The notes below the pieces were generated by a model. The model searched no databases, had not been told where the DNA came from, and worked only from the letters and a program-made list of their open reading frames with translations. Below, in pieces: positions 4,373 through 60,009 of a stretch of 64,000 nucleotides of DNA. This stretch comes from a bacterium (lineage in GTDB: Bacteria > Myxococcota_A > UBA9160 > UBA4427): assembly GCA_024742285.1 (NCBI GenBank), contig JANSYR010000002.1, forward strand, positions 372,001-436,000, given 5' to 3'. How positions within the stretch are numbered: position 1 is the first letter of the stretch; every line of letters begins with the position of its first letter. The position numbers and the translations under genes were made by a program.

Positions 4373-4433
4373 AGCGCGCTTCGCGACGAGGCAGCGCGTA
4401 TCGCTCCCGGCGCAGGCTCGGCGTCCCAGGACG

Positions 4434-5129: not shown

Positions 5130-5135
5130 ATGGGC

Positions 5136-6815: not shown

Positions 6816-7022
6816 GCCGGCTCGGCCTCGACGGGGCCGGCGCCGGCCGTCCGAGCGCCGATTTCCCCCGATCCCGGGTGAAGTCACGCCCCGGATCTGC
6901 CGATGTGCAGAGGAGTGTCGATCGCGCCCGGGGCCCGGTCGGGGCCGCCCTGTGCGTCCTCGCCGTCGCCGGCGAGCCGATCGGCATGGGACGAACACCG
7001 TACGGTGGGCGCACGAGGGGTC

Positions 7023-29726: not shown

Positions 29727-31136
29727 ATGCTGAGGAACAACGGCAAGATCACTTCGTCGCTGCTGATGTCGATGGACGTCGTGGTCAGTACGGTGATCTG
29801 CCTCGGCTTGCTCTACTGGACCGATCTCTCTGGCATGAGCGATCCGCTCGCAGAGGCGGGAGGCTCGACGCTTCTCCTCGCGGTCACGGCCTGTCTCGTC
29901 TGGCCGTTCACGTTCCAGCAGCTCGATGTCTACGCCTCGGTTCGGACGCTCGGGCCCTGGGACGTCGCCCGTCGGCTGCTGGTTTCCGGCTGCGTCGTCG
30001 CGACGATCCTCGGAGCCGTCGCCTTCGCGAGTGACGTGCCGATCTCGCGCGAGTTCCCGTTCGTCTGCGCTGCGGCGCAGGGGGCGGCGCTCTCGTTCAT
30101 GCGCTTCGCCGTCTACACGACGCTGCGGACGGCGCGTCGCGTCGGACGCAACACGCGAAACGTGCTGATCGTGGGGACGGGCGCGCGCGCGGCGCAGATC
30201 AAGCGAAGCATCGAATCCCACCCCCAATGGGGATTGTGCGTTCTGGGCTTCGTCGACGACGTCGACTCCGCGATCGATCGAAGTCTCTTCGATGCGAAGA
30301 TCTTCCGGGTCTCGGAGATGGACACGGTGCTGACGGAGATGGTCGTCGATCGCGTCCTGATCGCCGTTCCGCGCTCGATGCTCGGCTCGATCGCCCCGGT
30401 CCTGTCCGCCTGCAGCAGCACCGGCGTGCCGATCACCTTGATGACGGATCTCTTCGGCGACTACCTGCCGACGCCCTACGTCGGCAACTTCGGGTCCCGG
30501 CCGTCCCTCGAGTTCGCCATGGCCCACCACAACTCGTTCCTGCTGAGCGTCAAGCGCGCGGTGGACGTCCTGGGCGCCGCGGCCGCCGTCGTGGTCAGCG
30601 CGCCGCTGATCGGGCTCGCTGCCCTCGCGATCAAGCTGGAAGACGGTGGCCCCATCTTCTTCCGTCAGACGCGCTGCGGCCTCTACGGACGCCGCTTCTC
30701 GATGATCAAGCTTCGCACGATGTGCGTGGACGCCGAGGCGCGGAAGGCGGACCTCGTCGAGATGAACGAGATGGACGGTCCTGTCTTCAAGGTCAAGCTC
30801 GACCCCCGCATCACCAAGGTCGGTGCGTTCCTGCGCCGCTACAGCCTCGACGAGCTTCCGCAGTTCTGGAACGTCCTCTCCGGCGACATGAGTCTGGTCG
30901 GGCCGCGTCCCCCGGTTCCGGAGGAAGTGGTCCACTACGAGATCTCCGAGCGACGCCGTCTTTCGATGCGTCCGGGGATCACCTGCATCTGGCAGGTCGG
31001 TGGGCGGAACGAGATCGGCTTCGAGGAGTGGGTGAAGCTCGATCTGGAATACATCGATCACTGGTCACTGGGCCTGGACGCGAAGATCCTCTTTCAGACG
31101 ATCCCCGCCGTCCTCCTGGCTCGCGGCGCTTCCTGA
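29727..31136 (+). CDS. Polyprenyl-phosphate sugar phosphotransferase (phosphoglycosyl transferase)
   Basis: A 469-residue WcaJ/WbaP-type initiating enzyme, which transfers a sugar-1-phosphate to undecaprenyl phosphate on the inner membrane face. Four N-terminal membrane helices (about 10-135) are followed by a Rossmann-like domain starting [11 protein letters not shown]. Another membrane segment (about 275-300) leads into the catalytic bacterial sugar transferase domain: [21 protein letters not shown], the [20 protein letters not shown] block, SLVGPRPP, then [16 protein letters not shown]. It commits the repeat unit of the surface polysaccharide encoded in this region. Confidence 0.92.
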
Positions 31137-31205: not shown

Positions 31206-32336
31206 CTAGCCCGCCCCGAATCCGTGTGGCCCGTGGCCGTCCATGTTGGTGAGATGGAGACCGCCACGCGCTTCCTCGAAGGGTTCGAGCGCAGCCTGGA
31301 GCTCGGGCGAGACGGCCAGCGTTCTCCGGTTCTCGAGTACGAGATAGCCGTTCCGCGCGAAGGCCTGGACCCAATCCGGATGCGATTGATTGGAGCCGAT
31401 CAGGTCGACGCCGCGGTCCTCGAGGACGCGGGAAGCCGCCGCGATCACGACGGGCGCGTCGGCGGGCTTCGCCAGCACGTCGGCGATGCAGCCCACGCGG
31501 AGATCGCCGAAGCGTGGATCCTCGGGGTCGCGGTTGTCCATCGCGACCGCCCAGCCGATGTCCTGCCCGCCGCGGCGTACGCGGAGGCGGATGCCGAAGG
31601 GCCAGCCCGAAGCCGGCACGAGCGCGTTCATCGTGCCCGCGTCGCGCAGTCCGAGCGCGAGGTAATCACCGTGGCAGGCCGCCCAGAGATCGTCTGCCCA
31701 GGCCCCGAACTCGTCGACCTCCTCGCAGGACACGTCGCGCAGGCTCGGGCGCCGGAGTCCGCGGAGCGCCTGAAGGCCACGGAATCCGACGCTGCCCGCG
31801 CCCGTGAAGGCGAGGGCGTCGAGCGCCAGGCGATTCCGGGTCGTCCCGCGCAGGTATCGATTGCGGCGCAGGAAAGCGAACGGGCGGCAGACGCGGAGGC
31901 AGAAGGGCGTGTCATGGATCAGCCAGCCGAGCGATCTCAGCAGCTGCAACATCGTCGCGTCGTCTCCGCCGTGGCCCCAGCTGTAGAGAAGCGGCGAGCG
32001 CTTCAGCATGTCCCGGATCAGGCGCAGGCCGAGGGCGGCGTGGCGCGGCGAGATCGCGCCCTCGGAGACGGGACCCTGCCAGTCGGAGACCGAGTGGCGT
32101 TCGCCCCGGATGATCCACGGCTGGGGCTTGAGGGCGTAGGCGCCACGCACTCGCCCCTCGTCATCGGTCGCGACGAAGTGATCTCGCCAGACTTCGACGC
32201 CCTCGCGCGGCGGGATCCAGTCGTCGACGGCGGCCTCGTACCAGCCCCACGGCGACTGCCCCTCGGCCATGCGTCGGTTGAAGTCGGCGACTTCGGGGAC
32301 GTGCTCGTCGCGGTAGGGGACGATTCGGATGCCCAT
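31206..32336 (-). CDS. GNAT-like N-acyltransferase (putative)
   Basis: A 376-residue cytoplasmic protein starting IRIVPYRDEHVPEVADFNRR, the typical first strand-helix of GNAT folds. DDEGRVRGAYALKPQPW looks like the strand 2-4 hairpin. A second, weaker acyltransferase-like half (about 230-330, with ADAPVVIAAASRVLEDRGVD) suggests a two-domain GNAT, related in layout to FemAB/GNAT proteins seen in exopolysaccharide loci. No clear acetyl-CoA QxxGxG/A motif is visible. ATG 32336 has AGGAG 11 bases upstream. Divergent from the FAD monooxygenase gene, 188 bases apart. Confidence 0.6.
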   Translation of the reverse strand: MGIRIVPYRDEHVPEVADFNRRMAEGQSPWGWYEAAVDDWIPPREGVEVWRDHFVATDDEGRVRGAYALKPQPWIIRGERHSVSDWQGPVSEGAISPRHAALGLRLIRDMLKRSPLLYSWGHGGDDATMLQLLRSLGWLIHDTPFCLRVCRPFAFLRRNRYLRGTTRNRLALDALAFTGAGSVGFRGLQALRGLRRPSLRDVSCEEVDEFGAWADDLWAACHGDYLALGLRDAGTMNALVPASGWPFGIRLRVRRGGQDIGWAVAMDNRDPEDPRFGDLRVGCIADVLAKPADAPVVIAAASRVLEDRGVDLIGSNQSHPDWVQAFARNGYLVLENRRTLAVSPELQAALEPFEEARGGLHLTNMDGHGPHGFGAG

Positions 32337-32524
32337 GCCCGTCGAGACTCCTGTGCTGCCTGGGTCGGCGTGTGGAAAACGACGGCCGGCGTCCGGGGGA
32401 GGGGCCGCGAGAGTATACGACATCGGCCGTGCGACTCCCTCGCTGTACGGCTTCCCGACCCGCGCGAGGTCGCCTGCACGATCGACGTTCGGCGGTGGGC
32501 GACGCGGGGCTATGCTGGCGCGCG

Positions 32525-33706
32525 ATGAAGAGCGAGCTTCGGGTTCTCGTCGTCGGCGCCGGTCTGGCGGGATTGGCGCTCTGCCATGCGCTGTCACGCC
32601 GCGGGATCGCCGTCGATCTCGTCGAGCGCGATCCGGTTCCGCGGCCGGGGACGGGCATCCTCCTGGCCGGAAACGCGATGCGGGCCCTCGACGAGATGGG
32701 CATCGGGCGCGAGGTCCGACGGGCGGGGCGGGTCGTCTCCGAATTCCGCTTCGCCACGGCCGAAGGCGATGCCCTCTTCGAGGTCGCCGTCCCGGGCGCC
32801 TGGCCGGATTTCGTGTCGATCGAGCGGAAGGTGCTGCGCGCGCTCCTCGTCGAGGCCATCGCTCCGATCGTTCCGCGGAACGGATGTGTGATCGAGCGCT
32901 TCGTTCCGCACGCCGACGGCGTGCGCATCGTCGACGGCGAAGGCAGGAGCGCGGACTACGGATTGGTGGTGGGGGCCGACGGCGTGCACTCGCAGGTCGC
33001 TGTCGACCTCCTGGGCGACGCGCCGACGAAGCCGATCCCGGGACGGATCGGATGGCGATTCGTGGCCGACTGTCCCGCCGGCCTCGAACATCCCCTCTAT
33101 CAGGTCGGCAACGCCCGAACCTTCCTGCTCCATCCCTTGCCGAACGGGCGGGTCTACTGCGGCGCCGGCCCGGTTCCGAGTCATTGCGTCCCCGAGGGCG
33201 CCGATCCCCGAATCGCACTTCGGACCGCGTTCCAGGACTTCGGGGGGCCCGTCTCGCGCGTGATCCACGGGCTCGATTCGATCTCGAACCCCGAGCAGTC
33301 GATCATCCCCACCCACTACTGGCAGATCGATCGCGCGCGATGGTCGAAGGCGCGTGTCGTCCTCGTCGGGGATGCCGCCCACGCCTGCGTGCCGACGCTC
33401 GCCCAGGGAGCCGCCATGGCCTTCGAAGACGCGCAGGTGCTGAGCGCCGCTCTGGCGCGCGGGGACAGCGTCGAGCACGCGCTCGCGGAGTTCGAAGAGG
33501 GTCGGCGTGCTCGCGTTCGAGAGGCCCAGTCGGCTTCGCTCCAGCGCCTTCAGAGGACCGTGGAGCTGGACGATAGACAGTTGATGATTCGGGACCGGGT
33601 GCTCGCTCGCGTCGGCAAGGAACAGCTCGAGCGTGCCTGGGCCAACCTCGCGACGAGCGGCCCCTGGGATGCGGGTGACCCAGCCGTGCACCCAACGTCC
33701 GGATGA
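32525..33706 (+). CDS. FAD-dependent monooxygenase (PF01494-type)
   Basis: A 393-residue class A flavoprotein hydroxylase. GxGxxG is in VVGAGLAGLALCHAL with ERDP at the end of beta-2, the DG motif in VGADGVHSQV, and the FAD ribityl motif in LVGDAAHACVPTLAQGAAMA. Single-component NAD(P)H-dependent hydroxylases of this type oxidise aromatic or small substrates. The substrate is not readable. It ends 16 bases before the adenylation-domain gene, with which it likely forms an operon. ATG 32525 starts directly at the Rossmann fold. Upstream in-frame codons are not protein-like. Confidence 0.88.
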   Translation: MKSELRVLVVGAGLAGLALCHALSRRGIAVDLVERDPVPRPGTGILLAGNAMRALDEMGIGREVRRAGRVVSEFRFATAEGDALFEVAVPGAWPDFVSIERKVLRALLVEAIAPIVPRNGCVIERFVPHADGVRIVDGEGRSADYGLVVGADGVHSQVAVDLLGDAPTKPIPGRIGWRFVADCPAGLEHPLYQVGNARTFLLHPLPNGRVYCGAGPVPSHCVPEGADPRIALRTAFQDFGGPVSRVIHGLDSISNPEQSIIPTHYWQIDRARWSKARVVLVGDAAHACVPTLAQGAAMAFEDAQVLSAALARGDSVEHALAEFEEGRRARVREAQSASLQRLQRTVELDDRQLMIRDRVLARVGKEQLERAWANLATSGPWDAGDPAVHPTSG

Positions 33707-33722
33707 GGAACAGGAGAGGGCG

Positions 33723-35255
33723 ATGATCAAGCTCGTGCAGGAGTATTTCTCGGGCTCGGCCCGGCGCTCGCCGGACCATCCTGCGGTCGTCTGTCGCGAC
33801 GAGAGCGTGACCTACGGCGAGCTCGATCGACAGACGAACGCCTGGGCGCGCGATCTCCAGGCCCGTGGTCTCCGGCGCGGCGAGTTCGTCGTCTTCTTCA
33901 TGAAGAAGGGGATCCCGTCGATCCGGTCGATCCTCACGATCCTGAAGACGGACTGTGCCTATGTCCCGGTCGACGTGACGAGCCCGCCGGGACGGCTCGC
34001 GGACATCCTCGAGACGACCGGCGCGCGCTTCGTCCTCGTGGACACGAAGAGCGAAGGCATCCTCCGCGACGCGCTGGGAGACGACGCCGCGATCGAGATC
34101 GTGAACGTGGAGGGCGAGCCGTCGGGGGCGCCGGAGCCGCTCACGTATCGCAATCTCTCGATCGACATCGCCTACGTGCTCTTCACCAGCGGCTCCACGG
34201 GCAAGCCCAAGGGCGTGATGATCAGTCACCAGATGATTCTCGACTACATCGACTGGTGCGTCGAAACCTACGACATCCGGCCGACGGACCGGGTCGCGAA
34301 TCACGCCCCCCTCTACTTCGACAACTCGACGTTCGATCTCTACACGTCGTTCAAGTCGGGCGCGACCCTCTATCTGGTTCACGACGCGCTGAACACGATC
34401 ATGGTCAAGCTGATCCCCTGGCTCGACAAGAACGAGATCAGCGTGTTCTTCTGCGTTCCGAGCGTGCTGAACATCCTGCTGAAGTCGGGGAAGCTCGCGC
34501 CCGGACAGTTCTCGAAGATGCGCCACGTGCTGGCCGCCGGCGAGGCCCTGCCGCCCGCCGTGCTGGGCCAGTGGATGGATCTCTATCCGCACGTGCAGTA
34601 CACGAACATGTACGGCCCGACCGAGATCACCGTCGACTGCACCTTCCACGTCGTGCCAGAGCGTCCGGCACCCGACGCGACCCACGTTCCGATCGGGAAG
34701 CCCCGCGAGAACATGGAGATCTTCGTGGCGCGCGAAGACGGGACGCACAGCCTCGAGCCCGGCACCGAGGGAGAGTTGCTCGTGCGGGGGAAGTCCGTCT
34801 CGTACGGATATCTGGGAGACGCCGAGAAGACGAAGGCCGCGTTCGTGCAGAATCCGATGCACGACCGGTTCCACGATCCGGTCTATCGGACGGGTGACCT
34901 CGTGCGGGTCGCCGACGACGGAGGGTTGCTCTTCCTGGGCCGTCTCGACCATCAGATCAAGTACATGGGCAATCGGATCGAGCTCGGCGAGATCGAGTCC
35001 GCCCTCGTCGCGCTCGACGGCGTTCGCGACGGCGTCGTCGTGTTCAACGACAGCCCCGTCGTCGAAGAAAAGTGCATCGGCGCGCTCGTCTGCCTCGGCG
35101 ACGGAGCCGACAAGGAAGCCGTCGTCGCAGAGCTGCGGAAGCGCGTGCCGAGCTACATGGTTCCGCGCAAGGTCGTCGTCGCGGACGCGATTCCGCTGAC
35201 GCCCAATGGCAAGGCGGATCGCAAGGCGACCTTCGGGCTCGTCTTCGAGGACTGA
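33723..35255 (+). CDS. Stand-alone amino-acid adenylation domain (NRPS-like A domain)
   Basis: A 510-residue AMP-forming enzyme. It has P-loop FTSGSTGKPKGVMISH (about 154-169), A4-type YFDNSTFDLYTS, in which the Asp after Phe (about 200) is the residue that binds the alpha-amino group in NRPS A domains, YGPTEITVDCTF, YRTGDLV, GRLDHQIKYMGNRIELGEIE, and the C-terminal PNGKADRK lysine. There is no fused carrier or condensation domain. It resembles DltA-like and free-standing A domains that load an amino acid on a separate carrier. The carrier gene lies convergently 50 bases away. ATG 33723 follows AGGAGAGGG. Confidence 0.9.
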   Translation: MIKLVQEYFSGSARRSPDHPAVVCRDESVTYGELDRQTNAWARDLQARGLRRGEFVVFFMKKGIPSIRSILTILKTDCAYVPVDVTSPPGRLADILETTGARFVLVDTKSEGILRDALGDDAAIEIVNVEGEPSGAPEPLTYRNLSIDIAYVLFTSGSTGKPKGVMISHQMILDYIDWCVETYDIRPTDRVANHAPLYFDNSTFDLYTSFKSGATLYLVHDALNTIMVKLIPWLDKNEISVFFCVPSVLNILLKSGKLAPGQFSKMRHVLAAGEALPPAVLGQWMDLYPHVQYTNMYGPTEITVDCTFHVVPERPAPDATHVPIGKPRENMEIFVAREDGTHSLEPGTEGELLVRGKSVSYGYLGDAEKTKAAFVQNPMHDRFHDPVYRTGDLVRVADDGGLLFLGRLDHQIKYMGNRIELGEIESALVALDGVRDGVVVFNDSPVVEEKCIGALVCLGDGADKEAVVAELRKRVPSYMVPRKVVVADAIPLTPNGKADRKATFGLVFED

Positions 35256-35305
35256 GTCGGGGGCTCGTCCGGTCGGCTGGGTCCGAAGAGGCCGGCCTCC
35301 GGGCG

Positions 35306-35560
35306 TCAGGCGTCGACGGTGAAGAACGTCTCGTAGATCGCGTTCACGTCGCGAATCGAATCCGCGTCGAGGTCGTCGGTGTCGACCTCGTCACCGAGGA
35401 GATGCTCGACGAAGAGGATCAGCTCGACGACCTCGAGGGACGACAGGATGCCGTGCTCGAGGATCGGGGTGTCGTCGAGGAGCTCGGCGGGCCGGTCCTT
35501 GGCGTGCTCGAGGATCCAGTCGCGAAGCTTCGTCTTGATTTCGGGCTCGGTCATGTCCAT
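35306..35560 (-). CDS. Acyl/peptidyl carrier protein
   Basis: An 84-residue acidic carrier protein. The 4'-phosphopantetheine attachment Ser41 is in GILSSLEVVELILFVE, where the usual Asp before Ser is replaced by Ser40. Helix II continues into VEHLLGDEVDTDDLD. Predicted partner of the free-standing adenylation domain and substrate platform for the diiron oxygenase, whose gene lies 16 bases upstream in the same minus-strand unit. ATG 35560 has AGGA just upstream, and a second ATG two codons later is possible. Confidence 0.88.
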   Translation of the reverse strand: MDMTEPEIKTKLRDWILEHAKDRPAELLDDTPILEHGILSSLEVVELILFVEHLLGDEVDTDDLDADSIRDVNAIYETFFTVDA

Positions 35561-35576
35561 TCGATTCCTGGCGAGG

Positions 35577-36443
35577 TCAGTCGAGGACCGGCATCGCGGT
35601 CAGGATGCCGGAGTCGACGAGATTGGTGAGGAACTTCTCGGAGGCGCGCTGTCGGTGTTCTCGGCAGACCTCGGACTTGAGCGCCGCCTCGCGCGCGGCG
35701 TAGGTGTCCTTGATTCCGGCGTCGCGGTAGACGGAGGGGTTGAGGAAGTCACGCCAGCTGGCGTTGATGTAGTCCAGGAGCCAGGACCGGAAGTCCTCGA
35801 GCTCTTCCTCGTTCCATTCCGCCGTGATCTCGTCCCACTTCGACTTCAGGTAGGCGCGCCCGAATCGGATGTGGCGGGCCTCGTCGACGTGGTGCACGCG
35901 ATTGATGTCCCGGCAGATCTGGTCGAGTCGCTCGTCGGCGCCCATCACGACGTTGTAGTAGTCCGAGAGCTCCTCGACGACGAGCACCTTGAGGAGGAAC
36001 GAGAGATCTTCGCCCCCCTTCGGCATCTCGCGCGCGAACGAGATCTTCTTCTCCGGGTAGACGCGGCCCAGATAGCGCCGCAGGAATCCCGAGAACATCA
36101 TCATGTGCTTGTTCTCTTCGTCCATGAAGTGATGCATGTACTCGGTAACCGCGAGATCCTTCTCGTTCACGTACATGCGATGGCTCATGCCCTCGAGCAG
36201 GGGGCGCTCCCCGTTCAGGATCAGGCTGAAGAATCCACAGCACTCGTAGAAGGCGAGGCGCTTCTGCTCTTCCTCGGTCATCTCGTGCCAGATCGGCGTG
36301 TCGTAGAGCGAGACGAGCTCGGGACTCATCGCCCACCCGTCGGGATCGAGCGCCTCCGGAAAATCGAGAACGGTGGAGGGGTCGTAGAAGAATTTCTGAG
36401 AGGCCCGCGTCATCTGCTGCGCGACGGTCTGTACCTTGGACAT
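35577..36443 (-). CDS. AurF/CmlI-type diiron N-oxygenase
   Basis: A 288-residue ferritin-like helical protein of the p-aminobenzoate N-oxygenase (PF11583-like) group. The ligand pattern of AurF is present: E110-x2-H113 in EENKH, a Glu in VVEELSDYY (157/158), and H184-x3-E188-x2-H191 in HHVDEARH. The first Glu is probably within YECCGFF or LNGERPLLEG. These enzymes oxidise amines to hydroxylamine or nitro groups, some on carrier-bound substrates. ATG 36443 has CCAGGAG 6 bases upstream. The carrier protein gene follows after 16 bases, which supports carrier-bound chemistry. Confidence 0.82.
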   Translation of the reverse strand: MSKVQTVAQQMTRASQKFFYDPSTVLDFPEALDPDGWAMSPELVSLYDTPIWHEMTEEEQKRLAFYECCGFFSLILNGERPLLEGMSHRMYVNEKDLAVTEYMHHFMDEENKHMMMFSGFLRRYLGRVYPEKKISFAREMPKGGEDLSFLLKVLVVEELSDYYNVVMGADERLDQICRDINRVHHVDEARHIRFGRAYLKSKWDEITAEWNEEELEDFRSWLLDYINASWRDFLNPSVYRDAGIKDTYAAREAALKSEVCREHRQRASEKFLTNLVDSGILTAMPVLD

Positions 36444-37021: not shown

Positions 37022-37825
37022 ATGCAATCGACCACGGTCTTCTTCAGGGATGACGATGTCGGCGAGCTGACCGATCCACTCCGGAGTGTCCTCGAGATCC
37101 TCCTCGAGGCGGAGGTGCCGTGTCACTACCAGGTCGTGCCCAGCTACCTGGACGCGGCAGCCGCCGACGCGCTTCGCAAGCTCCAGTCGGAGCGCGCCGA
37201 TCTCCTCTTCCTGGACCAGCACGGTTGCACGCACTCGCAGATCGTCGACGGCCAGCCGCGTGCCAGCGAATTCGATGGCGACCGGCCCTACGACGATCAG
37301 TTCGATGCAATCTCGACAGGGCGTGACCGGCTGAAGGAGATGCTGGGCGAAAGCTTCTCCGGGCGCGTCTTCACGCCCCCTTGCCACAAATACGACGCGC
37401 AGACCCTGCGCGCGCTGGGCGACGCAGGCTTCGACACGCTCTCCGCGGGTCTTCGGGCCGACGGGCCCTCGCGTCTCTACTACGCCGTGGGCCGGCGCCT
37501 GGGGCGCGTGAAGCTGCTGGGAAAGCGCGTGTCCTACCACGGTCGTCGGATGCCGGACGCGCGCCTCGTCGAGGTCTCGGTCTCGCTCGACGTCCACGAG
37601 GACGTCGACGCCTCGGGGCGTCGGATCGACAAGGATTCCGAGCAGCTCTGGCAGGAGTTCGAATGGCTCCGACGCCGCCTTCCCGCGGTGGGCATCATGC
37701 TCCACCACCAGGCTTGCGACACGCCCGCGAAGGTCGGAGCCCTTCGGGCATTCGTGGCGCGACTCCGCGCCGACGCAGGGGTCCGATTCGGACGGCTCGG
37801 CGCGCTGGCGGCGGGGGCCGCATGA
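37022..37825 (+). CDS. Polysaccharide deacetylase-like (NodB-type) protein
   Basis: A 267-residue protein with the metal Asp cluster FFRDDDVG (residues 7-14), the HxxxH metal motif HGCTH (His67, His71), and FTPPCHKYDAQTLRAL, where NodB enzymes have RPPxG(x)Y. These are the conserved positions of CE4 deacetylases, but Cys-His replaces the usual residues after PP. No signal peptide, so it may act on lipid-linked or cytoplasmic substrate. Similar proteins sit in exopolysaccharide loci of the exosortase-A type. Its stop overlaps the next start (ATGA). Confidence 0.75.
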   Translation: MQSTTVFFRDDDVGELTDPLRSVLEILLEAEVPCHYQVVPSYLDAAAADALRKLQSERADLLFLDQHGCTHSQIVDGQPRASEFDGDRPYDDQFDAISTGRDRLKEMLGESFSGRVFTPPCHKYDAQTLRALGDAGFDTLSAGLRADGPSRLYYAVGRRLGRVKLLGKRVSYHGRRMPDARLVEVSVSLDVHEDVDASGRRIDKDSEQLWQEFEWLRRRLPAVGIMLHHQACDTPAKVGALRAFVARLRADAGVRFGRLGALAAGAA

Positions 37826-39039
37826 AGATCGCGTACATGACCCCGCAGTATCCGAAGGTGAGCCACACCTTCATTCGTCGCGAGATCGTCGCGCTCGAGA
37901 CGAGGGGCCATACGGTCGTCCGACTCACGATCCGCAAGAGCGACCTCGACGTCGTCGTCGATCCGGCTGATCGCGCCGAGCTCGAACGCACGATCGTCGT
38001 GCTCGCGGGGTCGGCGAAGCTCCTCTCCGCCGTCCTGATGGTGCTCGCGACGAGACCGCTGCGCGCCGTCGCGGTCGCTGCGAACGCGCTCCGCGTCGGA
38101 CTGCGAAGCGGGAGCGGCCTGGTTCGCCCCGTCGCCTACTTCGTCGAAGCCTGTCGTCTGGTGCGGCTGTGCGCCGAGGAAGAGGTCCAGCACGTTCACG
38201 TCCATTTCGGGACGAACGCCGCGACGGTCGCCATGCTGGCCCATCGCCTCGGCGGCCCGACCTTCAGCGTCGCGATTCACGGGCCGGACGAATGGGACGC
38301 GCCCGAGCGTCATCTGATCGCCGACAAGATCCGGGAGGGCGCGTTCACGACCGTGATCTCGGCCTACGCGCGAGCGCAGGCGCAGCGCTGGTCGCGGCCC
38401 GAGGACTGGCCGCGCCTGCACGAGGTGCATTGCACGGTCGACGAGGCCTTCTTCGAGGCTGCATCGCCGATCGAGGACGATCCGGAGATTCGATTCGTCT
38501 GCGTCGGGCGACTCACGCCGCAGAAGGGGCCGCACCTGCTGGTGGATGCCTTTGCACGACTCATCGAGGAGGGCACCAACGCCCGACTCGTCCTGGCGGG
38601 CGACGGCGAGCTGCGTGACGAGGTCGAGGCGCGGATCGCGAGTCACTCACTGGGGGACCGCGTCCGGATCACCGGCTGGATCAGCGAGGCGGAGGTCCGG
38701 CGTGAGCTCGCGGCAGCCCATTGTCTGGTTCTGCCGAGCTCCGCCGAGGGGCTTCCCGTGGTCATCATGGAGGCGTTCGCGCTCGGGCGTCCCGTGCTCT
38801 CGACCTTCGTGGCGGGCATTCCCGAGTTGGTTCGCCCCGGCGAGAACGGCTGGCTCGTTCCGGCCGGCGATGTCGACGCGCTGGTGTCGACCATGCGTGA
38901 GATCGTGAAGACGCCCGTGGACGAGCTTCGCCGGCGAGGCGAGGAGGGAGCGCGGGCGGTTCGCGATCGGCACACCGCCGCCACCGAGGGGCCCAAGGTC
39001 GACGCGCTGATCCGCGCGGGTCGAGGCGAGGGCAGCTGA
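37822..39039 (+). CDS. Glycosyltransferase family 4
   Basis: 405 residues, GT-B fold, retaining type. The N-terminal acceptor domain opens MKIAYMTPQYPKVSHTFIRR, a start common in GT4 enzymes of exopolysaccharide loci. The C-terminal donor domain has FVCVGRLTPQKGPHLLVDAF, and the E(x7)E region is SSAEGLPVVIMEAFALGRP, followed by GIPELVRPGENGWLVP. Adds a sugar from a nucleotide donor to the growing lipid-linked repeat. Coupled to the deacetylase by ATGA overlap, and followed 1 base later by the amidotransferase gene. Confidence 0.92.
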   Translation: MKIAYMTPQYPKVSHTFIRREIVALETRGHTVVRLTIRKSDLDVVVDPADRAELERTIVVLAGSAKLLSAVLMVLATRPLRAVAVAANALRVGLRSGSGLVRPVAYFVEACRLVRLCAEEEVQHVHVHFGTNAATVAMLAHRLGGPTFSVAIHGPDEWDAPERHLIADKIREGAFTTVISAYARAQAQRWSRPEDWPRLHEVHCTVDEAFFEAASPIEDDPEIRFVCVGRLTPQKGPHLLVDAFARLIEEGTNARLVLAGDGELRDEVEARIASHSLGDRVRITGWISEAEVRRELAAAHCLVLPSSAEGLPVVIMEAFALGRPVLSTFVAGIPELVRPGENGWLVPAGDVDALVSTMREIVKTPVDELRRRGEEGARAVRDRHTAATEGPKVDALIRAGRGEGS

Positions 39040-39040
39040 C

Positions 39041-41005
39041 GTGTGTGGCATTGCCGGTGCAATGGGGCCCGCCGCGGCGCCGCTTCGCGAGCGCGTCACG
39101 CGCATGACGCGAGCCCAGGCCCACCGCGGGCCGGACGACGAGGCGATCTGGGAGAGCGCTCCGGTCTCCGGTGGGGCCGACGGCCCGGTCCAATGCGTGT
39201 TTGGCCACCGTCGACTCTCGGTCGTCGATCTCTCCCCGCTCAGTCGGCAGCCGATGGTCGACGAGGCGACCGGGGTCGTCCTCTGCTTCAACGGCGAGAT
39301 CTACGACTTTCGCCACTTGCGAAAGGAGCTCGAGGGCGCGGGACATCGATTCAAGTCCCAGGGCGATGGCGAAGTCCTGCTCAAGGCCTGGATCGAGTGG
39401 CGGGAGGATTGCCTCGAGCGGCTCGTCGGGATGTTCGCCTTCGCGATCTGGGATCCGCGCGACGTGACGCTCACCCTGGGTCGCGACCGGATGGGGATCA
39501 AGCCGCTCTACTACACGCAGAGAGAAGACGGTACGCCCGACGCAGGGGCGATCTACTTCGCTTCCGAGCTCCGTGCCCTCGTGGCCGCCGACGTCACGGA
39601 GCGTCGCCTCGACCCCGTGTCCCTCGAGACGTTCGTGCACAACGGCTTCGTGCCGGGTCCGGCGACGATGATTCGCGGGGTTCGGTCTCTGCCGGCGGGA
39701 TGTCTGCTCCAGATTCCCGTTGCCGGAGGGCGACGAGCCGAGCAGCGGTATTGGCAGCTGCCGACGGCGGATCGGTCGCTCCCGGAGGCCGATGCGGTGG
39801 AGGCCGTCGATGCCGCCCTTCGCAGCGCCGTGTCCCGCCGCCTCGTCGCGGACGTGCCGCTGGGCATCTTCCTCTCGGGCGGCGTCGACTCGAGCGCGGT
39901 CGCCGCCCTGGCTCAGGCGGCTTCGGATCGAAGCGTGACGACGCTGAACGTGAGCTTCGAGGAAGCCGAGTACGACGAGTCGCCTCAGGCCGAGGCGGTC
40001 GCCAAGGCGCTCGGGACCCACCATCGTCGGCTCGCCCTGTCCGAGGACACCTTCGTCGCCGGTCTGGACGACGCGTTGGGGAGCCTCGATCAGCCGACCT
40101 TCGACGCGATCAATACGTTCTTCGTCAGCCGTGCGGTCCGCGAGGAAGGTCTGACCGTGGCGCTCGCCGGGACGGGCGGTGACGAGCTCTTCGGCGGCTA
40201 TTCGAGCTTCGCGGACCTGCCCAGAGCGCGACGACTCCTCGGCGGCGTGGGCTGGCTCCCGGCCTCGCTACGGCGGGGTGTGGGTCAGCTGATCGGGCTC
40301 GGCCTCGGTCATGCGGGGACGCGCAGCGTGCCGCCGCAGACGCGGTGGGGAAAGCTCGCGGATCTGCTCGCGTCGCCGCCCGCGCTCTCCGACCTCTATC
40401 AGGTGTCCTCCGCGCTCTTCACGGAGCGCTTCAAGGAACGTCTCCTGGCCGAGCGGGCCGGGACCGGTCAGGTCGTCGCGGGCCTCCCGGCCGAGCTGGA
40501 GGCGCTTCTCTCCGAGGCGACGCGAGAGCAGCCCGATCTGCACGCGACCTCGATGATGGAGCTCTCGCTCTTCCTGGGAGAGCGGCTGCTCAGGGACACG
40601 GACGCGGCCAGCATGGCCGTCGCGCTCGAAGTGCGTGTGCCCTTCGTGGATCACGAATTGATCGAAGCGGTGGCCCGTCTCCCCGAGGCGAGGCGCTTCG
40701 CTCCCCTCCGACGCAAGCAACTCCTTCGCGATCTGGGGACCGCCGGCCTCGATCCGGCGATCTTCGACCGCCCGAAGGCCGGCTTCGAGCTTCCGCTCGA
40801 CGTCTGGTGTCGACGTCGCCTCAAGGGACGCGTGTCCGAGGCGCTGCTCGACGCCGAGGCCTGCCGGCGAGTGGGGCTCCGGCCCGAAGCGGTTCGACAA
40901 CTCTGGCAGGCCTTCGAGGCGGAGCAGCCCGGGATCTACTGGTCCCGCGTGTGGTCTCTCTTCGTCCTGCTCACCTGGAGCCAGCAACATGATGTCCGAA
41001 TCTAG
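39041..41005 (+). CDS. Asparagine synthetase B-like amidotransferase
   Basis: A 654-residue glutamine-dependent asparagine-synthase family protein. The N-terminal Ntn glutaminase has Cys2 (MCGIAGAMG), HRGPDDEAIW, RLSVVDLS and FNGEIYDFRHL. The C-terminal synthase domain has PP-loop [12 protein letters not shown] and ALAGTGGDELFGGYSSF. Members in polysaccharide clusters (amidotransferases associated with exosortase-A loci) probably amidate sugars or other acids and do not make free asparagine. Which applies here is inference from context. GTG 39041 puts Cys at position 2, which is mandatory for the nucleophile. It overlaps the next gene by 17 bases. Confidence 0.9.
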   Translation: MCGIAGAMGPAAAPLRERVTRMTRAQAHRGPDDEAIWESAPVSGGADGPVQCVFGHRRLSVVDLSPLSRQPMVDEATGVVLCFNGEIYDFRHLRKELEGAGHRFKSQGDGEVLLKAWIEWREDCLERLVGMFAFAIWDPRDVTLTLGRDRMGIKPLYYTQREDGTPDAGAIYFASELRALVAADVTERRLDPVSLETFVHNGFVPGPATMIRGVRSLPAGCLLQIPVAGGRRAEQRYWQLPTADRSLPEADAVEAVDAALRSAVSRRLVADVPLGIFLSGGVDSSAVAALAQAASDRSVTTLNVSFEEAEYDESPQAEAVAKALGTHHRRLALSEDTFVAGLDDALGSLDQPTFDAINTFFVSRAVREEGLTVALAGTGGDELFGGYSSFADLPRARRLLGGVGWLPASLRRGVGQLIGLGLGHAGTRSVPPQTRWGKLADLLASPPALSDLYQVSSALFTERFKERLLAERAGTGQVVAGLPAELEALLSEATREQPDLHATSMMELSLFLGERLLRDTDAASMAVALEVRVPFVDHELIEAVARLPEARRFAPLRRKQLLRDLGTAGLDPAIFDRPKAGFELPLDVWCRRRLKGRVSEALLDAEACRRVGLRPEAVRQLWQAFEAEQPGIYWSRVWSLFVLLTWSQQHDVRI

Positions 41006-42105: not shown

Positions 42106-43881
42106 TCAGCCGTCGGCGCGATCCGGGGCCGGTCGGGCGCGTCGAAGTCGCTGGATCCCGACCATCGTCAGGATTCCCGGGAGAACGACGTAGAGCAGCG
42201 CACCGTCCATCGACGGGACATTCGGTGCCGGGCCGCCGCCGGTGGTGGTGATCGTCACCGTGTCCGGCGCACTCGAGGCGATCCCATCACTCACGACCAG
42301 CGAGACGACGTAGGCGCCCTCGACGTCGGGCGTGAGCGCGGGCGTCATGCTGAAAGCGTTCTCGAGCGTCGCGGTCGAGCCGGCGGGCTGCGTCTCGATC
42401 GTCCAGATCCAGAGCGCGATCGGGTCGTCGTCCGGGTCGGTCGCCATTCCCTGGAGAAGGGTCGTCACGCCCACGTCGACCGTCTGGTCGGGGCCGGCAT
42501 CCGCGGTGGGCGGGGAGTTCGTCGCAGCGCTGATCGTGACGCTGTCGGGCAGACTGGAGTCGAGTCCGTCGGAGACGACGACGGAGATCTCGTAGTCCCC
42601 GGCGAGATCGGGCGTGATCGCCGGCGTGGGGCTGAATCGCTGCTCGATCACCGCCGTCGACCCCGCCGGTGCCGCGTCCAGCGTCCATGTCCAGAGCACG
42701 ATGGGATCGTCGTCGGGGTCGCTCGCGGAGGCCGTGATGGGCGTTCGCTGGCCCACGATCGTCGCGAGATCCGGGCCGGCATCCACGACGGGCGGCTGGT
42801 TCGCGACGCCCGTCACGGTGAGCGTATCGGGGTCGCTTTCCAGCAGACCATCCGAAACGAAGACCGAGATCACGTAGTCGCCGGCGAGATCCGGCGTGAG
42901 CGAGGGCGTCGGGCTGAACGGCTGATCGAGGACGGCCACGGAGCCCGGGGGCGCCGATTCGATGGACCAGTTCCAGAGGGTGACCTGGCCTTCGTTGGCA
43001 TCGCTGGCCGAAGCCGACAAGGCCTGGGGGACGCCCAGGGTGGTCGTCACGTCCGGCCCGGCGACGACGACCGGCGCGAAGTTGGTCTCGGCCGTGAGCG
43101 TCGCCGTGTCCGGGTCGCTGCTGAGGAGCCCGTCGGAGACGACGACGGAGATCACGTAGTCGCCGGCCAGGTCCGGAGCCAGCGACGGGGTCGGACTGAA
43201 CTGATTCTGCAGCGTGGCGACCGATCCGGGCGGCGCGGAGTCGATCGACCAGTTCCACTGGGCGATCGGATCCCCGTCCGGGTCGTCCGCCGTGCCGACG
43301 AGCGCGAAGGTCTGGCCGATGAAGACGGTCCCGTCCGGGCCGGCATCGACCGTCGGTGGCGAGTTGGGGAGGGCCGTGACGGTGACGGTATCGGGTGCGC
43401 TCGTGAGGAAGCCATCCGACACGACGAGCGACACGATGTAGTCGCCGGGCACGTCGGGCGTAATCGTCGGCGTCGGGCTGAACGCGTTCTCCAGGGTCGC
43501 CGTCGAGCCCGGCGGGGCCGATTCGATCGTCCAGAGCCAGGTCGCGATCGGATCCTCGTCGGGATCCGTCGCCATCCCGAGCAGCCCCGTCGCAACCCCG
43601 AGCTTGATCGTCACGTCCATGCCCGCGTCGGCGACGGGGGGCTGGTTCTGTGCGGAAGCCAGCATCGGCAGAGTGAGCAGCAGCGCGGTCCAGAGGATCA
43701 CGCGAGCGAGCGGGTGCCGGCGGCGAGGTCGCAGAGCCGCGCCCGCTCCCCTCGGCGAGGCGCTTCGCCCCAGCCAGCCTGTCGTCGCGTCGTCGATCAA
43801 TTCCGAACCTCTCGGCCTGCCAGTCCTTCGCCCTGCCTGCGACGACGCTTCGATTCGATCGTTTCGCTCGTCTTCCGGCAA
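42106..43881 (-). CDS. Exported protein of five PKD-like repeats with C-terminal sorting signal
   Basis: 591 residues. After a long basic N-tail a signal segment (ARVILWTALLLTLPMLASAQ) leads into five tandem 94-residue Ig/PKD-like units. Each starts PPxVDAGPD-like and contains DPDxDPIxxWxW, SAPPGSxAxL, F-S-P-T-P and GDYVISVVVSDG. The C-terminus is a tripartite signal: VPSMDG, a hydrophobic helix (ALLYVVLPGILTMVG), then RLRRAR, like PEP-CTERM or IPTL-CTERM proteins. Probably a cell-surface or matrix protein processed by an exosortase-type enzyme, which is not in the window. ATG 43881 gives an unusually long n-region, so a later start is possible. Confidence 0.78.
   Translation of the reverse strand: MPEDERNDRIEASSQAGRRTGRPRGSELIDDATTGWLGRSASPRGAGAALRPRRRHPLARVILWTALLLTLPMLASAQNQPPVADAGMDVTIKLGVATGLLGMATDPDEDPIATWLWTIESAPPGSTATLENAFSPTPTITPDVPGDYIVSLVVSDGFLTSAPDTVTVTALPNSPPTVDAGPDGTVFIGQTFALVGTADDPDGDPIAQWNWSIDSAPPGSVATLQNQFSPTPSLAPDLAGDYVISVVVSDGLLSSDPDTATLTAETNFAPVVVAGPDVTTTLGVPQALSASASDANEGQVTLWNWSIESAPPGSVAVLDQPFSPTPSLTPDLAGDYVISVFVSDGLLESDPDTLTVTGVANQPPVVDAGPDLATIVGQRTPITASASDPDDDPIVLWTWTLDAAPAGSTAVIEQRFSPTPAITPDLAGDYEISVVVSDGLDSSLPDSVTISAATNSPPTADAGPDQTVDVGVTTLLQGMATDPDDDPIALWIWTIETQPAGSTATLENAFSMTPALTPDVEGAYVVSLVVSDGIASSAPDTVTITTTGGGPAPNVPSMDGALLYVVLPGILTMVGIQRLRRARPAPDRADG
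42237..43646 (-). repeat. Five tandem 282-bp repeats
   Basis: The DNA encoding the PKD units repeats with an exact 282-base period. The same GAY-codon landmark recurs at 42311, 42593, 42875, 43157 and 43439. No indels between units; differences are substitutions only. This indicates recent duplication or ongoing homogenisation. Confidence 0.85.
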
Positions 43882-46551: not shown

Positions 46552-48090
46552 ATGAAGATCGCATTCGCCTACTTCACATTCGTGATGTTCATCCCGTTCG
46601 CCTACCTCGTCATGCGTCGCATGGAGAGAGCGCAGGCCGCGGCGACCGTCGTCATCGTCGGCTCGATCCTGTTGCCCGAGGTGATCGCGGTCGACCTGCC
46701 GGTCGTGCCGCCGATCGACAAGGAGTACCTGACCTACACCTGTACCCTCGTCTTCGCGTTCCTCTGCCATCGTCGAGCGTTGCTCGAAGCCAGGCCGGGG
46801 ACCGGCCTCGAGATGATCGTGATCCTGATCTTCCTGGCGAACATCGGCACCGCCACGATGAATTCCGTTCCGATGATGGACGAGGGGCGTCTCGAGGACG
46901 GTCTCGGTCCCTACTGGATCGCCGCGAAGACGGTGGACGACGTGCTGACCGTCTTCGTCCCGTTCCTGGTCGGTCGCGCGATGTTCCGGTCGATCGAAGA
47001 CCTGTACGTGTTCCTGAAGACGCTGGTCATCGCGGCGACCGGCTATACGGCACTGATCGTCCTCGAGACGGTCATGTCCGTTCCCTTCCGCGTCTGGCAG
47101 CTCGCCCAGGTGATCTACGGACTCCCGGCGCGGGTCAACATGCGCTGGGGGCTCGCGCAGCCGGTCGTGTTCTTCGACAACGGCCTCGCGCTCGCGACGT
47201 TCATGGCCGTGTCGACGATCGCCGCCGCGGCGATCGCGCGGACGGGACTGCCGCTTCCGTGGGTCGGACGGGGATTCGGCCTTCCGAAGATTCCCACGCC
47301 TCTCGCGAGGAACATCGTGACGGTCGGGCTCCTGCTCGCGCGGAACGTCGCGGGCATGGTCTACGGAGTGAGCTTCTTTGCCGCCTATGCCCTCGCGCGG
47401 AAGCAGCTGGCCGCGATGCTCGGTCTCGGCCTCGTGCTGCTCGCGTGCATCTACCCCACGCTTCGAATGGTCGATCTCTTCCCCTACGAGGAGATCGTGG
47501 AGTTCGCCCGACAGTACCTGCCCGAGCGGGCGCACTCGCTCGAAGGGCGCTTCCTCGAGGAGGAGCACGTCCTCGGGCAGATCGGCGATCGGCTGTGGCT
47601 GGGATGGGGGACGTACAGCCGGATCCCGGGTGCGGAGGGGTTCGGGCAGGGCGAGGTCGGCCTCGACGGGTGGGTCACGATCAAGATCGGGACGAGCGGC
47701 GTCCTCGGGGTCGCGCTCTACTACTTCGTGTTCGCGGCGCCTGCGATCCGGGCCTGGTTCGGGATGAGACGCACGAATCGCACGGGACAGATCCTGCTCG
47801 GCGCGATGATCGGGATGGTCGCAATCCGGATGATCGACATGATCATCAACGGCTGGTGGAACTGCTTTCCCATCTTCCTGGCGGGGGTGACCGCCGGGGT
47901 GACGGGGGGTCTGGGGCGTTCGAGCGGGAAGCCCCCGATCGGCTCCTCGCAGCGCAGTCGGTCGACGGCGACCGCAAACGAGCCTCCCGTCGCCGGGGGG
48001 ACGTCAAAGGAGCGAGACGAAGTCCGGCGGACGGTCTCGACGGCAGAGCTCCTCCAGGCGGGAAGGCGCCCGGACGATGAAGATCGATAG
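46552..48090 (+). CDS. Polysaccharide polymerase/O-antigen ligase-like membrane protein
   Basis: A 512-residue integral membrane protein with about ten or more helices and a large periplasmic loop around 300-370 (LPERAHSLEGRFLEEEHVLG, WLGWGTYSRIPG), the layout of Wzy/WaaL-type proteins. The loop motif LEGR...GWGTYSR matches the pattern seen in exopolysaccharide polymerases. The C-terminal 60 residues are hydrophilic and probably cytoplasmic. Likely polymerises the repeat units made by the neighbouring glycosyltransferases. Assignment as polymerase versus ligase cannot be made by eye. Confidence 0.72.
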   Translation: MKIAFAYFTFVMFIPFAYLVMRRMERAQAAATVVIVGSILLPEVIAVDLPVVPPIDKEYLTYTCTLVFAFLCHRRALLEARPGTGLEMIVILIFLANIGTATMNSVPMMDEGRLEDGLGPYWIAAKTVDDVLTVFVPFLVGRAMFRSIEDLYVFLKTLVIAATGYTALIVLETVMSVPFRVWQLAQVIYGLPARVNMRWGLAQPVVFFDNGLALATFMAVSTIAAAAIARTGLPLPWVGRGFGLPKIPTPLARNIVTVGLLLARNVAGMVYGVSFFAAYALARKQLAAMLGLGLVLLACIYPTLRMVDLFPYEEIVEFARQYLPERAHSLEGRFLEEEHVLGQIGDRLWLGWGTYSRIPGAEGFGQGEVGLDGWVTIKIGTSGVLGVALYYFVFAAPAIRAWFGMRRTNRTGQILLGAMIGMVAIRMIDMIINGWWNCFPIFLAGVTAGVTGGLGRSSGKPPIGSSQRSRSTATANEPPVAGGTSKERDEVRRTVSTAELLQAGRRPDDEDR

Positions 48091-50785: not shown

Positions 50786-51478
50786 TCAGCCCGATGCGAT
50801 CAGGGCGCAGGCGATGGCGTACTTCGAGCTGCGACTGACTCGAAGGGGAATGCCCTGGACCATCTTCATCGCCGCCGCGCGATCCTCGGGCGCGAACTTG
50901 AACTCGACCACCAGAATCGCGGGCATGTCGATCGAGCGTTCGAGACGCGGAGTGCGACCGAAGCGCTGGTCGAAGGCCTTGAGGTCGGTGTCGACGGTGA
51001 GTCGGACCCGCCCGTCTCCCGAGACGAAGTAGTGCCGGTAGTACTGGTTCACGAGCGCGACCGCCGGATTCAGATCGAAGCGAACGCGTGCATCGTCGGG
51101 GAGCTGTCGTCGGAGGTCGGCCCGGAGGGTCTGCCAGGGCACGTCGTGGCGTGGTACGCCGACGACGGGATAGGAGAGCTTCCAACCGAGCTTGTTGCGT
51201 CGCAGCTTGACTTCGAGCGTGGAGCGATCCGACTCGGGCTCGCGCCCGTACCAGCGCAGTCGCACCTTCTCTCGCGCGCTGGCGCCGACCAGGTTCTCTT
51301 CGAAGGCGCCGAGGTCGTACGTGTCGAAGTAGGTGCTGTTCACGAAGCGCGGCGGGTAGGGGCGGACGAAGCCGGCCGCGTGCTCCCGGATCCAGGTCTC
51401 GATCACGTCCTGTGCGCTGGCCTGGCCCAGGAACTTGACCTCGAAACGCTCGGTGCCTGCGAGGAGCTGGTCGTCCAT
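50786..51478 (-). CDS. VTC-domain protein (polyphosphate polymerase family)
   Basis: 230 residues matching the tunnel-forming VTC/CYTH-related domain: FEVKFLGQA at the start (the EVKF/ERKF strand), RPYPPRFVNSTYFDT, RLRWYGRE, STLEVKLRR, RLTVDTDL and ILVVEFKF, which supply the alternating basic and acidic residues of the active tunnel. In eukaryotes VTC4 makes polyphosphate, while the bacterial members are less known. It starts 4 bases after the CotH-like gene and completes the DUF4956-CotH-VTC set, a recurrent neighbourhood in bacteria. Confidence 0.85.
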   Translation of the reverse strand: MDDQLLAGTERFEVKFLGQASAQDVIETWIREHAAGFVRPYPPRFVNSTYFDTYDLGAFEENLVGASAREKVRLRWYGREPESDRSTLEVKLRRNKLGWKLSYPVVGVPRHDVPWQTLRADLRRQLPDDARVRFDLNPAVALVNQYYRHYFVSGDGRVRLTVDTDLKAFDQRFGRTPRLERSIDMPAILVVEFKFAPEDRAAAMKMVQGIPLRVSRSSKYAIACALIASG

Positions 51479-51482
51479 GGCG

Positions 51483-54134: not shown

Positions 54135-54237
54135 GGCAGCGGAGGCCTCTAGGCGGAGAGGGGCGGGCGGATCGCGGAGGTTCCGCGATCGGGGTGAGCC
54201 ATGCGCCGGCGGGCGCGGGGCTCGTGATCCCGCGGGT

Positions 54238-54921
54238 TCATACGGCCGGGACGCGCTGCTGGTCGATGAACGTCACGCCGATGCCCGGGTAGGCGGTCTC
54301 GAGCGCATCGATCATCTCTGCGAGGCGCGTCGAGTCCTGCATGTCGACCCAATAGGTCGCCTCGAGACTGCCGTGTCGTTGGTCGATGCGGCGGAGGTCG
54401 CCGGAGGAGACGAAGGGACGGAAGGTCTCTTCGATCCCGTTCAAGGGGTTCTGCTGTCCCTCGCCGACGGGGCAATCGATCGACAGGTAGAGGTTCTTGG
54501 GCTCCATTCCCTCGCGTCGCCAGCGGAGCACGGCTACGGCGGTCAGGATGATCACGGCGGAGACCACCGTGGGCACGAGCTGGTCGGCCCCGAGGCCCAG
54601 TCCGATCGCGATCGCCATGAAGAGGTAGGCGAGCTCTTCGGGCTCCTTGATCGGGGTTCGGAATCGGACGATCGAGAGCGCGCCGACGAGACCGAGCGAG
54701 AGAGCGAGGGACGACTTCACGACCGTGATGATCAGGATCGTGGTCATCGTGATGAAGGGGAAGACCTGGGCGAACTCCGTTCGGTTGGACAGCGTCGACC
54801 CGAAGCGCTCGAAATGCCAGCGCAACGCCACCGCCAGGATCAGGCCGAGGGCCAACGCGATCACGAGTGACGGCATCGAGAGCGGAGCGCCGGAACTCAG
54901 CTCCGCGGTTAGACCTTGCAT
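54238..54921 (-). CDS. DUF4956 membrane protein
   Basis: 227 residues. Four membrane helices (about 18-35, 55-75, 80-90, 110-135) with the family core SLALSLGLVGALSIVRFRTP and IKEPEELAYLFMAIAIGLGL. A cytoplasmic ferredoxin-like C-domain (RIDQRHGSLEATYWVDM, LETAYPGIGVTFI) follows. First gene of a minus-strand trio with CotH and VTC proteins. Function is unknown in the literature I know. The start at 54921 has no good ribosome-binding site, and ATG 54876 (MPSLV) is an alternative. The 410-base region upstream (54922-55331) has no supported gene. Confidence 0.82.
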   Translation of the reverse strand: MQGLTAELSSGAPLSMPSLVIALALGLILAVALRWHFERFGSTLSNRTEFAQVFPFITMTTILIITVVKSSLALSLGLVGALSIVRFRTPIKEPEELAYLFMAIAIGLGLGADQLVPTVVSAVIILTAVAVLRWRREGMEPKNLYLSIDCPVGEGQQNPLNGIEETFRPFVSSGDLRRIDQRHGSLEATYWVDMQDSTRLAEMIDALETAYPGIGVTFIDQQRVPAV

Positions 54922-55331: not shown

Positions 55332-57869
<2,538 letters not shown>

Positions 57870-59569: not shown

Positions 59570-60009
59570 AGATTCTCGCGGTCGCGAGCGGCGGCGGTCA
59601 CTGGATCGAGCTGCTGCGCCTTCGGCCCGCCTTCGGCGACCACAGCGTCCACTACGTGACGGTGCAGGAAGAGTATCGCGAAGACGTGCGCGGCTCGGGC
59701 TTCAGCGTGGTGCGCGACGCGACGCAGTGGCAGCGCGTGGCCCTCGTGATCCAGGCGCTCCAGATCGTGTGGGTCGTCCTGCGCGTTCGTCCCGACGTCG
59801 TGATCTCCACCGGCGCCGCGCCGGGATTCTTCGCCCTGCGACTCGGTCGTCTCCTGGGCGCGCGCACGATCTGGCTCGATAGTCTGGCGAACGTCGACGT
59901 GCTCTCCCGCTCGGGCCAGATGGCCGGGGCGCACGCGGACCTCTGGCTGACGCAATGGCCCGAACTGGCCGCCGAGTCGGGACCGGTCTACCACGGAAAG
60001 GTCATATGA
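59566..60009 (+). CDS. Alg14/PssD-like glycosyltransferase subunit
   Basis: 147 residues forming the acceptor-binding half of a split GT-B enzyme: KILAVASGGGHWIELLRLRP at the start (GGGH loop), VQEEYREDVRG, RPDVVISTGAAPGFFALRLG, then a membrane-proximal helix. In yeast Alg14 anchors Alg13. Bacterial PssD/EpsE pairs work in exopolysaccharide synthesis. The partner is the next gene, overlapped by ATGA. Coupling at both ends to neighbours implies fixed stoichiometry. Confidence 0.85.
   Translation: MKILAVASGGGHWIELLRLRPAFGDHSVHYVTVQEEYREDVRGSGFSVVRDATQWQRVALVIQALQIVWVVLRVRPDVVISTGAAPGFFALRLGRLLGARTIWLDSLANVDVLSRSGQMAGAHADLWLTQWPELAAESGPVYHGKVI

Follow-up and report, generated by a model that had tools for sequence, protein, structure and literature searches.

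Genes of the cassette

Five adjacent genes occupy positions 31206-36443 of a 64,000-nucleotide stretch of the myxococcotal contig JANSYR010000002.1 (assembly GCA_024742285.1; the whole stretch is called the window below), which comes from a genome of 6.5 Mb. Four of them, coding for a GNAT-like protein, an AurF-type oxygenase, a carrier protein and a free adenylation (A) domain, are a conserved unit in Myxococcota. This cassette is considered here together with its possible part in decorating an exopolysaccharide (EPS) made by flanking genes. An original prediction, drawn from the DNA alone, had described the five genes as one possible pathway of N-oxygenation, and all five open reading frames are present exactly at the coordinates it gave.

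From left to right, the products are a GNAT-like transferase of an unnamed family (31206-32336, minus strand, 376 aa), a FAD-dependent monooxygenase (FMO; 32525-33706, plus strand, 393 aa), a free-standing amino-acid A domain of the AMP-binding type (33723-35255, plus strand, 510 aa), a stand-alone carrier protein (35306-35560, minus strand, 84 aa) and an AurF-type ferritin-like diiron oxygenase (35577-36443, minus strand, 288 aa). Window proteins were compared with the Pfam and NCBIfam libraries, using curated cut-offs. The FMO, previously called a flavin hydroxylase, matches PF01494 (FAD_binding_3, 1.8e-23), in agreement with that name.

The AurF-type protein matches PF11583 with 130.1 bits (1.2e-37), for a curated cut-off of 29.6. 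The sequence does contain the ligand motifs noticed earlier, EENKH and HHxDE(A/S)RH (HHVDEARH in the window), and none of their charged residues varies among 13 homologs. In 28 subfamily members from Myxococcota and plasmids, E110/H113, E157 and H184/E188/H191 are invariant. The predicted diiron ligands are E110, H113, E157, E188 and H191, plus either E67 or E79. The last two are both kept in the window clade (13 homologs, one with Asp at 67). Alignments with ribonucleotide reductases (RNR) pointed to E79 as the helix-1 ligand; plasmid relatives have Ile at position 79 and keep E67. A seventh ligand, the first His of HxxxExxH, is characteristic of N-oxygenases (PMC12154687). At the H184 position, more distant diiron paralogs of the order, with six ligands, carry Val or Thr, and the window protein belongs, as judged from its sequence, to a subfamily that has this N-oxygenase histidine.

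One characterised relative, HamC, oxidises carrier-tethered L-Val (PMC11659414). AurF relatives on plasmids of Tistrella, Streptomyces and Agrobacterium vitis occur together with a free carrier; in the Tistrella and two Streptomyces plasmids a class-II aminoacyl-tRNA synthetase-like protein (PF00587) replaces the A domain. This pairing with carriers and synthetase-like loaders supports, by analogy, a carrier-tethered amino acid as the probable substrate of the AurF-type enzyme. The four plasmid clusters (L085:11929-15214, L086:9974-12711, L088:7702-11623 and L089:9932-14578, from Tistrella mobilis pTM2, two Streptomyces and A. vitis, with PF00587 in three) often have a nitronate monooxygenase beside the AurF gene, and a phosphopantetheinyl transferase (PPTase) too; they resemble small pathways for N-oxidised aminoacyl natural products. 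No AurF relative was found in viral contigs.

With 367.7 bits against TIGR01733 (6.7e-110; cut-off 317.4), the A domain is above threshold and is therefore of the amino-acid type rather than a fatty-acyl ligase, as had been claimed. A specificity code, which had been proposed as a check, could be read by motif-anchored alignment and not from a structure: it is DNFFLAMVDK in the window, with Asp and Lys conserved, and DLFFLC(L/I)IAK in most relatives, with Leu at Asp+1 and Cys at Asp+69. AlmE, which activates Gly, has D247, L248 and C316, and DltA, which activates D-Ala, has D197, L198 and C269 (PMC11253843). The Leu and Cys of most relatives, and their spacing, are those of AlmE and near those of DltA, and for the A domain of locus L072 the closest single-domain relatives in the PDB include AlmE (4oxi) and IdnL7 (6akd). 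The window has Ala at the Cys position, as has IdnL7 (A285; Gly, L-Ala and L-Ser). These pockets suggest Gly or D-Ala as the substrate of most relatives, and a small L-amino acid for the window enzyme.

Pfam does not recognise the carrier, and NCBIfam does so weakly (OlsHI-ACP 1.6e-6, DltC 7.9e-4). Both Ser of its SSL motif are invariant across 14 homologs, in line with the earlier claim of a carrier with its Ser, and the LSSL Ser is probably the phosphopantetheine site.

The GNAT-like protein has no match in Pfam or NCBIfam, and homologs 45 to 65% identical to it adjoin AurF, carrier and A genes in other loci. Its structural model, with a mean predicted local distance difference test score (pLDDT) of 40, contains two GNAT-like repeats in its secondary structure, and a Foldseek search with it places FemX first (E 5.8e-4), with AAC(6') GNATs also found. 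The acyltransferase-like character proposed originally is thus backed by a low-confidence model and not by any profile. A profile search of the family against the PDB gave weak matches to protein arginine methyltransferases (E 0.01 and worse), which we took as chance, and no GNAT homolog was found on plasmids at E<=1e-5.

Conservation of the quartet and exchange of the donor module

Whole-genome searches were confined to Myxococcota, with 80 genomes of the same order and a phylum set of 379. The AurF subfamily is sharply bounded: in the 80 genomes its matches are 36 to 68% identical, and the next ones are mostly below 30%. It occurs in 19 of the 379 genomes and the GNAT family in 16, with both in 14 genomes that span about nine genera; a naive hypergeometric test gives p = 1.2e-19, a value inflated by kinship. 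Co-occurrence in other genomes, the test named with the original prediction, was thus found. At 13 loci in 13 genomes the two genes are adjacent or nearly so, and 12 of these also have a carrier and an A domain. A profile scan of all loci gives the full quartet in the window, L037, L038, L040, L041, L042, L044, L069, L071, L072, L073 and L074; the short contigs L036 and L043 have no GNAT gene. Cassette loci lie almost always inside polysaccharide loci. This recurrence in unrelated Myxococcota families is far beyond chance.

The FMO stands apart. Outside the window its homologs (42 to 46% identical) adjoin the cassette in two loci only, L036 and L037, and the convergent layout with FMO is limited to these two and the window. 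AurF, carrier and A genes all point the same way in L038, L040-L042, L044, L069 and L071-L073; in L074 the A gene is oppositely oriented and no FMO is present. The FMO is an accessory of one lineage, the window and two relatives, and lies outside the conserved core. Of the five-gene pathway first proposed, the quartet stands and the FMO does not, and the convergent arrangement without condensation domains, offered then as a distinguishing property, turns out to be lineage-specific. A 2-oxoglutarate (2OG)-Fe(II) oxygenase (PF13640) also recurs near the cassette (L069:11813-12640, L070:9789-10607, L073:7385-8215, L038:6677-7468 and L040:17715-18491), with no homolog in the window.

Comparison of the window with L040, which is of the same genus and in the same chromosomal setting, shows that the parts of the cassette have different histories. 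The EPS glycosylphosphotransferase and RmlB are each 79% identical between the two, against 62% for GNAT, 47% for AurF, 40% for the carrier and 33% for the A domain. With L037, from another family, AurF, carrier and A domain are 66, 68 and 64% identical and GNAT 50%. In trees, the window GNAT groups with L040/L042 (support 95/96) and the window AurF with L036/L037 (100/100), and approximately unbiased (AU) tests reject the swapped clades (p about 1e-105 and 1e-102, the groups having been named after the trees were seen). It follows that the donor side, made up of AurF, carrier and A domain, travels as one unit, and GNAT stays with its acceptor.

Five members of the GNAT family have no AurF gene alongside, and four of the five have a carrier and a loader nearby. 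L080 (9791-14054) has an A domain, a carrier and an acyl-CoA dehydrogenase. In L083/L084 the GNAT has a carrier next to it (L083:17020-18545), with an A domain, a carrier and an acyl-CoA dehydrogenase about 20 kb away (L084:1129-4129); the genome's AurF gene (L039) lies on the same contig at a distance of about 27 kb. The L081 member is accompanied by a carrier and the beginning of an A domain, that of L082 (9473-12768) by a PP-binding carrier and an FkbH-like protein, and that of L079 by neither carrier nor loader. In L044 one GNAT gene (with the proline-type set at 3324-7563) is accompanied by both sets: a carrier, a proline-type A domain and an acyl-CoA dehydrogenase, then AurF, carrier and A domain. 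The pocket DL(L/F)YLALV-K is common to the A domains of L080, L084 and L044, and the best stand-alone PDB relative of the L084 domain is the L-prolyl-carrier ligase 6o6e. The proline-type sets of L080, L044 and L083/L084 suggest transfer of a pyrrole-2-carboxyl-like group, and the FkbH-like protein of L082 suggests a glyceryl-type donor. The common factor of the GNAT loci is GNAT plus a carrier. Because the paralogs keep a carrier and varied loaders, the GNAT-like protein is probably a tandem-GNAT acyl or aminoacyl transferase with a carrier-bound donor.

The polysaccharide setting described originally is confirmed by the genes on both sides. To the left are rmlA-like (PF00483, 27166-28035) and rmlB-like (PF16363, 28032-29156) sugar-nucleotide genes on the minus strand, of a kind that also flanks the cassette in L069-L072, and an EPS polyprenyl glycosylphosphotransferase, the initiating sugar transferase (29727-31136, plus strand; TIGR03025 above cut-off). 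To the right, all on the plus strand, are a relative of NodB-like polysaccharide deacetylases (DUF2334; 37022-37825; PF10096 4.3e-8) with the metal-binding D/HxxxH pattern kept, a family-4 glycosyltransferase that is EpsE-like below the cut-off and has homologs in several cassette loci (37822-39039), and an AsnB-like amidotransferase (39041-41005, start possibly at 39062; PF00733, TIGR01536 above cut-off). Family-2 glycosyltransferase genes are found on this side too, and farther on an acyltransferase and an AlgX-like protein. A NodB-type deacetylase, its metal-binding HxxxH kept, lies near GNAT in 11 loci: of DUF2334 type in the window, L040-L042 and L083, and of PF01522 type in L037, L069, L071-L073 and L081.

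Membership of the XrtA/PEP-CTERM type of EPS locus was rejected, all scores being below cut-off (TIGR03098 ligase 243.7 for 592.35 bits, TIGR03108 amidotransferase 429.1 for 816.9). We also dropped a reading of 46552-48090 as a DltB-like membrane-bound O-acyltransferase (MBOAT), since Pfam gives no match for the protein and a weak Wzy_C resemblance for its homolog L070:13189-14616; this 512-aa protein, with homologs in L070 and L040, is a possible polysaccharide polymerase or ligase. An Alg14-like protein and one with a glycosyltransferase-28 C-terminal domain (Alg13-like) form a pair at 59566-60500; starts of a glycosyltransferase-28-like protein are seen in L069, L071, L072 and L083, and the pair may share the polysaccharide pathway. 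Elsewhere in the window, VTC-domain, CotH-like/beta-helix and DUF4956 genes stand in a row on the minus strand (50786-54876), and two PKD/Ig-like repeat proteins (42106-43701 and 55332-57797) lie on either side of the polysaccharide genes.

Proposed decoration of an exopolysaccharide and competing explanations

The question arises as to what such a cassette could make. On balance we lean towards a module that prepares a donor and transfers it to the EPS made by the flanking genes. The free A domain would activate a small alpha-amino acid and bind it to the stand-alone carrier as a thioester, a step supported by homology. The AurF-type enzyme, given its family and its seven-ligand site, may then oxidise the carrier-bound amine to a hydroxylamine, an oxime or a nitro group, with further oxidation by the FMO possible in the window lineage. 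Finally the tandem-GNAT, FemX-like protein would take the acyl group, now oxidised, off the carrier and attach it to an amine, either on the polysaccharide or on a sugar precursor. This amine could be exposed by the nearby NodB-type deacetylase; a simple scheme, by analogy, would be N-deacetylation of an N-acetylhexosamine followed by N-acylation with the carrier-bound group. GNAT would be the constant, acceptor-side part, and A domain, carrier and oxidase the exchangeable, donor-side part.

More tentatively, we suggest that the EPS of some Myxococcota bear aminoacyl groups with an oxidised nitrogen (hydroxylamino, oxime or nitro), which AurF-type enzymes would make on a carrier and a new family of GNATs, dependent on such carriers, would install. 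Exchangeable donors, whether an N-oxidised amino acid, pyrrole-type or glyceryl-type, would then amount to a combinatorial decoration. AurF-type enzymes are so far known from antibiotic and signal pathways. If the proposal is true, these enzymes would also serve a structural polysaccharide in a conserved way and give bacterial matrices N-O groups that might bind metals or be redox-active; a new transferase family would stand beside Dlt and Alm, and the cassette would offer a tractable case of surface glycans that acquire chemical groups by donor-module exchange. We found no published AurF/EPS system or surface decoration of this kind in the open-access literature.

Several observations weigh against this proposal. 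L070 has GNAT and AurF alone, with no adjacent A domain or carrier, and AurF relatives of the same clade are found in nonribosomal peptide synthetase (NRPS) or unclear contexts without GNAT (L045, L046, L047 and L075). The deacetylase is missing near the GNATs of L038, L070, L074, L079, L080 and L082, and the role of the FMO is left unexplained by the decoration scheme. The co-occurrence figures take no account of shared ancestry. On the protein side, the GNAT assignment hangs on the pLDDT-40 model and has no profile match, the helix-1 ligand of the oxygenase may be either E67 or E79, and the AlphaFold2 model of that protein, built from three sequences, has a pLDDT of 54; Foldseek puts RNR R2 proteins on top of its matches (E about 0.8).

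A first alternative keeps the decoration and changes the chemistry: the AurF-type enzyme would hydroxylate or desaturate carbon in the aminoacyl group on the carrier, or form an imine, giving an EPS with a hydroxylated or dehydro-amino acid. Ferritin-like enzymes are chemically diverse, Dob3 forming a diazo group (PMC12154687), the tailoring enzyme in the GNAT-paralog loci is an acyl-CoA dehydrogenase, that is, an enzyme of carbon oxidation, and 2OG-Fe oxygenases occur in several loci. However, no member of the subfamily lacks H184, the six-ligand paralogs do not have it, and the characterised carrier-linked relatives oxidise nitrogen (PMC11659414), so that we hold this possibility to be rather unlikely.

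Release of a free small metabolite is, in our view, a poorer candidate still. The carrier-bound N-oxidised amino acid would be condensed or released as a signal, a metallophore or a toxin, as in pvf/ham, whose AurF relatives yield valdiazen and fragin (PMC11659414), and the polysaccharide setting would be incidental. The natural-product-like plasmid clusters with nitronate monooxygenase and PPTase, and the clade members L039, L045 and L075, which adjoin giant NRPS- or polyketide synthase-like genes, are in its favour. On the other hand, the conserved unit has no condensation, reductase or thioesterase domain and no exporter, and GNAT and EPS genes recur jointly across families. Because GNAT keeps its place in the EPS locus through exchanges of the donor module, and because its paralogs retain other carrier-loading partners, transfer to the polysaccharide is favoured over a released signal or toxin; the original prediction had named both outcomes as options, and the two are not equal.

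Finally, that the genes are unrelated neighbours, adjacent by accident or because a surface locus dense in genes tends to gather them, is scarcely tenable: the FMO and the layout vary and polysaccharide loci gather diverse genes, but the cross-family recurrence of GNAT, AurF, carrier and A domain in many genomes refutes chance adjacency for the quartet, leaving it still possible for the FMO.

Comparison with known systems

Among oxygenases, the window protein shares with AurF, CmlI and PvfB/HamC the PF11583 profile, the EExxH, E, HxxxExxH pattern and the seventh His, and with HamC, by prediction, a carrier-linked substrate. Unlike them, it is of its own subfamily and is accompanied by a free A domain and a free carrier in EPS loci, with no NRPS module or polyketide; the multidomain NRPS of the pvf/ham clusters (HamD/PvfC) is not beside it.

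The DltABCD system, which D-alanylates teichoic acids, likewise uses a free A domain and a carrier to serve a surface glycan, and DltA is among the better relatives of the A domain. The window proteins nevertheless score far below the cut-offs for DltA (303.6 against 559.85 bits) and DltC (19.5 against 52.35), the transferase is GNAT-like and an oxygenase is added. No DltB-type MBOAT was found among the genes scanned around the cassette (25228-62759), and one is near in L074 and L081. AlmEFG, which glycylates lipid A in Vibrio cholerae, also combines an A domain, a carrier and a transferase to a surface glycolipid. The AlmE pocket residues Leu (D+1) and Cys (D+69) occur in most relatives, whereas the window has Asn and Ala; the cassette further differs from AlmEFG in its oxygenase and in its setting, EPS instead of lipid A.

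In Nod factor synthesis, a NodB-type N-deacetylase, a carrier (NodF) and an N-acyltransferase (NodA) act on a lipo-chitooligosaccharide. The cassette has the NodB-type partner, but its donor would be loaded by an A domain and oxidised, and the locus is that of a polymer, not of a signal oligosaccharide; NodA is absent from the Pfam matches of all 12 GNAT-like members (E<=1). FemX transferases are the top Foldseek match of the GNAT-like model and would share with the protein a tandem GNAT fold and the transfer of aminoacyl groups to amines, yet they take aminoacyl-tRNA and show no sequence match, the confidence of the model being very low. PltE/PltF/PltL-like pyrrolyl-carboxyl sets, with their proline-type A domain, carrier and acyl-CoA dehydrogenase, stand by the GNAT paralogs of L080, L083/L084 and L044, where they replace or accompany the AurF module, and are absent from the window. 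Falling outside Dlt, Alm, pvf/ham and Nod, the cassette yet follows the logic of carrier-dependent acylation of surface glycans.

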